Below the pieces are notes generated by a model. It had not been told where the DNA came from, did not search any database, and saw only the letters and a list, made by a program, of their open reading frames with translations. Source: Puniceicoccales bacterium (lineage in GTDB: Bacteria > Verrucomicrobiota > Verrucomicrobiia > Opitutales > UBA953). Taken from it: DNA of 32,050 nucleotides. Position 1 is the stretch's first letter, and each line of letters begins with the position of its first letter. The DNA is taken from NCBI GenBank assembly GCA_031285745.1, contig JAITVQ010000096.1, positions 1 to 32,050 on the forward strand. Reading direction: 5' to 3'. The translations under genes were made by a program, and so were the position numbers. This document shows positions 10,450 through 11,758 of this stretch, piece after piece.

Positions 10450-10522
10450 TTTATCCAGCAGGAGCCAAGATAAACCCGAAGCAAAGATTGAAGCACTATA
10501 ATTTCGCCAGTTTACCTTTTTT

Positions 10523-10816
10523 GCAGGCATACGGAGCTTCCATTTCGGTTGCAGGGTTGGTTCTGCACACGCACAAAGCTCTCGTTTCAGCAGGAAAGCT
10601 TCCTCTGTACCAATACGGTGATCCCAACTCAGTTGATGAGGTCTCATCATACTAATACAGCAGAGTAAAATCAGCTGAAAACCTCCGGCCGTACGCATAC
10701 GGAGGTTCCATCTCGGACGGCAGAGGCTTTTTGTACGCGTACGGAGCGAGTAATCCACGTGGTTTCATTTCTCCGTACGCATACAGAGGGGACTTTTCGG
10801 GCGGATGGATGTCTTG
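10523..10816. repeat. Degenerate 42-bp-period tandem repeat, 7 recognisable units
   Basis: Units start at 10523, 10565, 10607, 10649, 10691, 10733, 10775 with core GTACGCATACGGAG (variants GCAGGCATACGGAG, GCACACGCACAAAG, GTACCAATACGGTG, ATACTAATACAGCA, GTACGCGTACGGAG, GTACGCATACAGAG); spacing is exactly 42 in every case. Confidence 0.85.
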
Positions 10817-11158
10817 GATCAACATTGGATGAGAGTAAATTCAGTGTGGAATGTGTCTGGATTGCATGGGGGCAAGTCACTGAAAGCGTCCAACATGTTT
10901 CACAAGCAAAGCTAGGATACCTACAATAAGGAATAGAAGTGTAAGCAGATAGCTCAGTAGCTGCGCAAGTCGCATGGAGGTTGTTTTAAACATGCCCATC
11001 TTGTTGCATGTGGTCAGGGCCGCTTTTGCTACAGAGCTTGTCCAGCCCGTATTTTTTGCCGGGCGTTTATGCTATTTCAAATTTCCCCTTCTTTTCTTGA
11101 GAAATTGTCCGAGTCGATTACCGTCGTGAATCTTTCTACTTCTATACCTGAAACCATC

Positions 11159-11758
11159 ATGCCTGACTGCGACGAAAAGAAAAATGACGCCCAGCAAAAT
11201 CCTCCGATGGGGGCCCAAATTCAGAAAAAATTTCTGGAACAGCGGAAGATTTTTCTCTGGGGTGCTGTCGATGATGATTCGGCCAAGGATATTACCGAGA
11301 AGCTGCTCTATCTTGAGGCGACCGATCCGGGCAAGGAAATCACCTTCTATATCAATACACCCGGTGGTTCCATCACGGCTGGCATGGCGATCTACGATAC
11401 CATTTTCCTTATTTCTTCTCCGGTGAAAGTGGTCGTAACCGGCATGGCGGCCAGCATGGGCTCCATTTTGCTCAGTGCCGGGAAAAAAGCAGGGAAGGGC
11501 GGGCGTTTACTCTTCCCCCATGCGCGGGTGATGATTCACCAACCACTTATCATGGGACGGATTGTTGCCCCTGCGGTGGATATTCATATCCATGCCCAGG
11601 AAATGGAAAAGACCCGCAATGAGCTAAACCATATCCTGGCAGATGTTTCCGGACAGCCTTTGTCCAAGATCGAACAGGATACCGACCGCGACTTCTATCT
11701 GGATGCCAAGGCTGCCATAGAGTATGGGCTGGCAGATGCCATTATAGATAAAATCTGA
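11159..11758 (+). CDS. clpP: ATP-dependent Clp protease proteolytic subunit
   Basis: [18 protein letters not shown], catalytic Ser in GMAASMGS, catalytic His in [12 protein letters not shown] 11159 is a plausible start; 11069 is an alternative. Confidence 0.92.

Follow-up and report, generated by a model that had tools for sequence, protein, structure and literature searches.

A seven-unit 42-bp tandem array between gapA and clpP is best described as an orphan copy of an array type associated with the protein family DUF6261

The window analysed here, a stretch of 32,050 nucleotides from a Puniceicoccales bacterium (contig C239 of a 2.96 Mb genome in 299 contigs), carries seven consecutive 42-bp units without indels at positions 10521-10814, between the terminator of gapA and clpP. 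Judged by sequence comparison, this array is best understood as a partly decayed orphan copy of a type of tandem array associated with genes of the Pfam family DUF6261 (PF19775), and it very probably belongs to that kind. We call it an orphan because its unit type matches an array linked to DUF6261 on another contig (C126), but no similarity to DUF6261 was found near the window array itself. For the DUF6261-associated array as such, the explanation that we favour, with a probability of roughly 0.5, is a transcribed hairpin array together with a partner protein.

The self-identity of the window array is 0.49 at a lag of 42 and 0.52 at a lag of 84. The lag-42 value was matched by none of 2000 dinucleotide-preserving shuffles, in which the best identity at any period from 10 to 109 was 0.38. 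The seven units and the exact 42-bp pitch of the original prediction are thus real; its spacing was correct, while its unit positions were shifted by 2 bp, the true start being 10521 (Table 1). The tandem-repeat finder that had been proposed as a check (TRF) does not call the array, because the units are only ~50% alike, while lag analysis against shuffles finds the 42-bp period. The placement behind the gapA terminator also holds. The units were assigned to the (-) strand from their homology to the C126 array, where the DUF6261 gene lies in the opposite orientation. A search of Rfam gave no match in the window array at gathering score, the sub-threshold matches lying near the gapA terminator apart from a few at chance level. 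To the right of the array, clpP (window 11069-11758) probably starts at 11159 (MPDCDEKK...) and not at 11069, relatives reading MSDCDEKK or MPDNDDEK; a start at 11159 leaves ~345 bp between array and gene.

Table 1. Features of the array region, in window positions
Feature	Start	End	Strand	Remark
gapA intrinsic terminator	10409	10452	+	Perfect 20-bp inverted repeat; left boundary, outside the array element
Duplicated segment (array plus ~100 bp of right flank)	10511	10911	.	93-95% identical to C112:3674-4074 of the same genome
Whole window array	10521	10814	.	A dyads centred at 10527/10528 + 42k, B dyads at 10548/10549 + 42k
Unit 1 (TTGCAGGCATACGGAG...)	10521	10562	-	Left A-arm lost
Unit 2 (CTGCACACGCACAAAG...)	10563	10604	-	Most decayed core
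Unit 3 (CTGTACCAATACGG...)	10605	10646	-	
Unit 4 (TCATACTAATACAG...)	10647	10688	-	In-frame stop between two tyrosine-like codons
Unit 5 (CCGTACGCATACGGAG...)	10689	10730	-	Best A dyad
Unit 6 (TTGTACGCGTACGGAG...)	10731	10772	-	
Unit 7 (CCGTACGCATACAGAG...)	10773	10814	-	

Column-wise palindrome analysis revealed a dyad every 21 bp in the window array, with A at offset 7 (CCGTA-N4-TACGG) and B at offset 28 (TCAGCTGA-like; the palindrome TCAGCTGA itself lies in unit 4). The core dyad, which had been predicted, is real: its mean complementarity at offset 7 is 0.55, a value reached by 4 of 1000 column permutations, and in the sister array on C126 the observed complementarity is reached by 0 of 1000. 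The C126 array independently yields both dyad offsets (7 and 28), 21 bp apart. With 4 or 5 of its five pairs preserved, the A stem counts as intact in three of the seven window units vs five of seven in C126, and for this reason we regard the window copy as worn. A pitch near four helical turns, as originally suggested, is supported; the second dyad, half a period away, had been missed.

Two further arrays of this type occur in the same genome. The duplicate of about 400 bp on contig C112 adjoins der, and a third array of seven units, about half identical to the window array, lies at C126:16789-17082 and adjoins a gene of family DUF6261. Searched with a sequence model of two units, the genome returned these three seven-unit arrays and one weak match (G000:C237:1023-1082, E 0.0018), possibly another decayed orphan array. 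The same model gave nothing at E <= 0.01 in 37 relatives and one marginal match (G197, E 7.5e-4) in the other genomes of a 373-genome Opitutales sample. Since the window-type unit is convincing in this genome alone, the array is not ancestral in the gapA-clpP interval; the gapA-clpP gene order is not conserved in congeners, so that no empty site can be read there. No clear target-site duplication was seen at the ends of the window/C112 duplicate, and no phage or plasmid DNA matching the window array was found. Neither the window array nor its C112 twin carries a gene, and we read both as strays or relics; their likely partner is the DUF6261 gene on C126, where the unit is of the same type. Orphan arrays with the unit of a linked array also occur in two other genomes, G377 and G378, so such orphans are a general feature; the orphan counts are lower bounds, with at least two in the window genome. 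On C126 itself (L010:5056-5519), a reverse-strand gene for a signal-peptide protein reads into the DUF6261-linked array and seems to be cut short at that point, as though the array had landed in the gene or been fused to it.

A pattern scan of public genomes identified intergenic arrays with the same core, spaced at 21 or 42 bp, in Bacteroidales, Treponema and other groups. It was this core pattern that led to the array genomes G373-G386, although most of the 55 arrays considered below are without it. When the neighbours of arrays were scanned with Pfam, DUF6261 was found beside the C126 array, one Parabacteroides array and one Bacteroidales array. The family is present in nine of nine array genomes of Bacteroidales/Opitutales vs 2 of 42 array-less controls, with 26 matches in G377 (Parabacteroides), 16 in the window genome (G000), 14 in G385, 12 in G378 and 1-4 in the others. 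Counting DUF6261 genes with at least 300 nt of upstream sequence and allowing periods of 36-47, a tandem array lies upstream in 49 of 55 distinct loci from the Opitutales window genome and gut Bacteroidales. The periods are 40, 41, 42 and 43 bp in 2, 15, 30 and 2 loci, respectively, and none falls outside this range, which strengthens the idea of a helical pitch. Three of the remaining six loci, all in G378, have the array downstream (unit identity 92-96%), so that 52 of 55 are accompanied by an array on either side. Under the same cut, the controls gave 8 of 51 downstream flanks, three of which are the G378 arrays, and 6 of 55 loci at lags 50-61. A 41-bp array also accompanies a DUF6261 locus in each of G389 and G002, genomes selected without regard to arrays.

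The array sequences are mostly unrelated between loci, each DUF6261 locus having a private array, and co-divergence of array and protein is weak (Mantel r 0.22, p 0.004 in G377; r 0.25, p 0.08 in G000). No conserved partner gene was found beside the pair of array and DUF6261 gene. Among the 373 Opitutales genomes, only the window genome and one congener pass the DUF6261 family cut-off, and on account of this distribution (2/373) the family was probably gained horizontally. DUF6261 was not found on plasmids or in IMG/VR. Among phage records, a relative is present in one unverified 6.3-kb 'Bacteriophage sp.' scaffold from human faeces (L449; MT837725.1, 2933-5992), with a 41-bp-period repeat ~200 nt upstream of it; the scaffold may be a bacterial fragment. 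In a pattern scan of viral contigs almost all matches were CCCGTA-type microsatellites. Several Treponema MAGs (L154, L155, L176, L228, L240, L247) contain CCGTAC-NN-GTACGG arrays at an exact 21-bp pitch; DUF6261 is absent from the Treponema array genomes, and these arrays either have another partner protein or represent a different phenomenon. The Bacteroidales MAG Md513_bin13 (G379, L291-L295) contains at least five intergenic 21-bp arrays near housekeeping genes such as leuS, gidB and a mutS-like gene; these arrays differ in sequence from the arrays beside its three DUF6261 genes.

In many arrays two dyads lie about half a period apart, their separations clustering at 19.5-21. Averaged over 22 arrays, the arms (offsets 2-7) are conserved, and the centre and offsets 10-13 are variable. 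Pooled over 51 arrays, arm pairing amounts to 2195 vs 2151 +/- 12 cells (z = 3.7; 0 of 1000 shuffles), against a control in which the 3' letters are reshuffled between units and which ignores the relatedness of units within an array. Such covariation of the arms inside an array speaks for pairing and not for recognition of a fixed sequence. Of 34 Bacteroidales loci, 8 have a promoter in sense orientation within the 110 nt that precede the array (1.4 expected), and 0 have one in antisense orientation (1.5 expected). These counts, on which we rely, use a Bacteroidales-type consensus with at least 9 of 10 bases, scored against shuffles; a stricter count of exact promoters gave 3 of 37 loci. A sense promoter thus stands at the 5' edge of a subset of the arrays, a placement that argues for transcription.

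These observations, together with the association, the constant unit length and the two dyads, are the basis on which we favour a transcribed hairpin array with a partner protein. On the same side stand single-strand folding that is stronger than in shuffles (mean z -3.9 on the sense strand) and an excess of G-T over A-C mismatches on the gene-sense strand. One unit of the system would comprise a single gene for an all-helical DUF6261 protein (~240-300 residues) and its private array, usually just 5' of the gene, with ~3-10 units of 40-43 bp and two inverted repeats per unit, half a unit apart. Transcribed towards the gene, the array would yield a string of alternating short hairpins at a 20-21-nt pitch. 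By analogy with known systems, the hairpins may be bound by the DUF6261 protein and perhaps processed into unit-length RNAs, each paralogue keeping its own array sequence. Several points tell against this reading. The G-T excess is marginal (193 vs 161, one-sided p about 0.05; 68 vs 47, two-sided p = 0.06, in an earlier count). The antisense strand surpasses its shuffles in folding about as clearly as the sense strand does (mean z -3.6), as the palindromes require. The periods, clustered at 41-42 bp, also fit double-stranded DNA sites, and no convincing promoter was found on the assigned strand of the window array.

Because the periods cluster so narrowly (41-42 bp, four turns), cooperative binding to double-stranded DNA stays the main rival, a serious though less probable one. 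Each unit would offer two inverted repeats 21 bp (two turns) apart, to which dimers of DUF6261 would bind cooperatively on one helix face, and the array would be an operator, a centromere-like site or a nucleoid-organising element. A dyad every 20-21 bp and a period of 40-43 in otherwise unrelated arrays agree with such phased sites. Many arrays finish less than 50 bp from the start codon, an operator-like position, and the orphans present at more than one place in G000, G377 and G378 would be additional genomic binding sites. However, arms that vary and covary between units of the same array are unexpected if a protein reads fixed half-site bases, at the three loci examined in G378 the array follows the gene, and the promoter tends to precede rather than follow the array. 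The iteron- or operator-like site of the original prediction is therefore not established, promoter placement and arm covariation leaning to a transcribed, base-paired array. Its interpretation as a whole is partly supported; the link to DUF6261 was invisible to it.

That the array is a selfish dispersed repeat of REP/BIME type, spread by DUF6261 as its mobility enzyme, seems improbable. The dispersed orphans, among them the near-identical 400-bp duplicate, would fit, as would the multicopy, patchy and probably horizontal distribution of the family. Yet the orphans are few, two in the window genome and not hundreds, the two duplicate ends have no clear target-site duplication, and DUF6261 matches no nuclease or transposase family. 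RAYT genes (PF01797) were not found beside arrays and are absent from 3 of 11 array genomes searched; conversely, no array-like core cluster lies beside any PF01797 gene in the array genomes. CRISPR was rejected, since the array has no exact repeats (units ~50% alike) and no Rfam match at gathering score, and no cas gene is present among the Pfam-scanned array neighbours. A decayed gene whose product was built of 14-residue repeats (YAYGGSxSxGRGFxxP-like frame), the alternative named originally, is hardly credible: 42 is 14 codons and one + frame of the window array, open over parts of it, reads YAYGGSISDGRGF-like repeats, but a stop interrupts the same codon in 4 of 14 units (window and C126), the frame is not kept open, the palindrome makes YxY appear on both strands, the periods of 40, 41 and 43 in homologous arrays are not multiples of 3, and no protein family matches. 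In Exiguobacterium sp. s193 (L151:330-600), near-identical 42-bp repeats (ATTCGTACGGTAAGTCTTGTTTTGCTAACGGTTTGACTACGT) look like a coding 14-residue repeat; they probably matched the core pattern by chance.

The DUF6261 protein itself was modelled with AF2 from a 35-protein alignment. The model is all-helical (mean pLDDT 92.7, pTM 0.72). Foldseek searches of PDB and BFVD gave no match at E <= 0.001, and no Nop protein is among the 50 best PDB matches. In Pfam, PF19775 is the only consistent and convincing match of the members, and PDB sequences, NCBIfam, PHROGs and PADLOC gave no meaningful match. In the open-access literature, we found a single incidental mention of DUF6261, in a paper on daptomycin resistance in Streptococcus.

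Tentatively, and at odds slightly short of even, we regard these loci as undescribed, horizontally spread array-plus-protein modules of gut bacteria. Each would pair a DUF6261 protein with a private two-hairpin RNA array, in dozens of mutually distinct copies per genome, and might be RNA-guided or defensive; the protein has no detectable relation to the Nop, Cas, ToxN or transposase families. CRISPR, TIGR-Tas and type III toxin-antitoxin, known loci that combine an array with a protein, proved to be RNA-based and widely interesting. The DUF6261 arrays span two phyla, with up to 26 family matches in one genome, and the system is directly testable in cultivable Bacteroidales. The orphan array of the window offers a way to ask whether arrays act in trans.

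In plasmid iterons and partition centromeres, direct repeats are in phase with the helical turns and adjoin the gene for the presumed binding protein. The DUF6261 arrays resemble them in this respect; unlike them, DUF6261 loci are chromosomal, can reach 26 copies in one genome, mostly unrelated in sequence, and have no replication or partition ATPase gene conserved beside the array. REP/RAYT elements likewise are palindromic intergenic repeats in several copies, tied to one protein family. However, DUF6261 is not a Y1 (HUH) transposase, the GTAG/GGAG-tagged REP design is absent, and the array copies are in tandem, at fixed pitch and few per genome. Measured against the criteria for type III toxin-antitoxin systems (ToxIN and relatives; PMC8860590), DUF6261 loci share the order of tandem array and single protein gene, and the ~3-6 or more repeats whose sequence differs between clusters; a promoter may likewise precede the array (8 of 34 Bacteroidales loci vs 1.4 expected). 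The toxin of those systems, though, is an endoribonuclease whose fold resembles that of type II RNase toxins, whereas DUF6261 is all-helical and its AF2 model gave no match to a ToxN/CptN/TenpN-like endoribonuclease fold. Their antitoxin repeats are pseudoknots, in contrast to the paired hairpin-like dyads of DUF6261 arrays, and at the DUF6261 loci array and gene often stand so close that a terminator would hardly fit between them.

The system closest in design is TIGR-Tas (Faure et al., Science 2025, PMC12045711). There, Tas proteins are defined by a Nop domain, and processing of the dual-repeat units yields 36-nt RNAs that have box C/D-like motifs and 9-nt spacers; stem-loop arrays beside a nuclease-less TasA are reported from gut metagenomes. 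Both systems have constant-length units beside one small protein gene, upstream or downstream, and in each unit two elements, repeats or dyads, that are interleaved with short variable segments; palindromic arrays occur in both. In contrast to Tas, DUF6261 is without a Nop domain (Pfam; Foldseek vs PDB), and its arrays have periods of 40-43, no evident box motif and, in many cases, near-identical spacers. Because the tests for a Nop domain, a toxin fold and a partner enzyme fail, we do not file DUF6261 and its array under TIGR-Tas, type III toxin-antitoxin or REP/RAYT; the presence of an array beside nearly every DUF6261 gene points to an undescribed system that pairs a repeat array with a protein.
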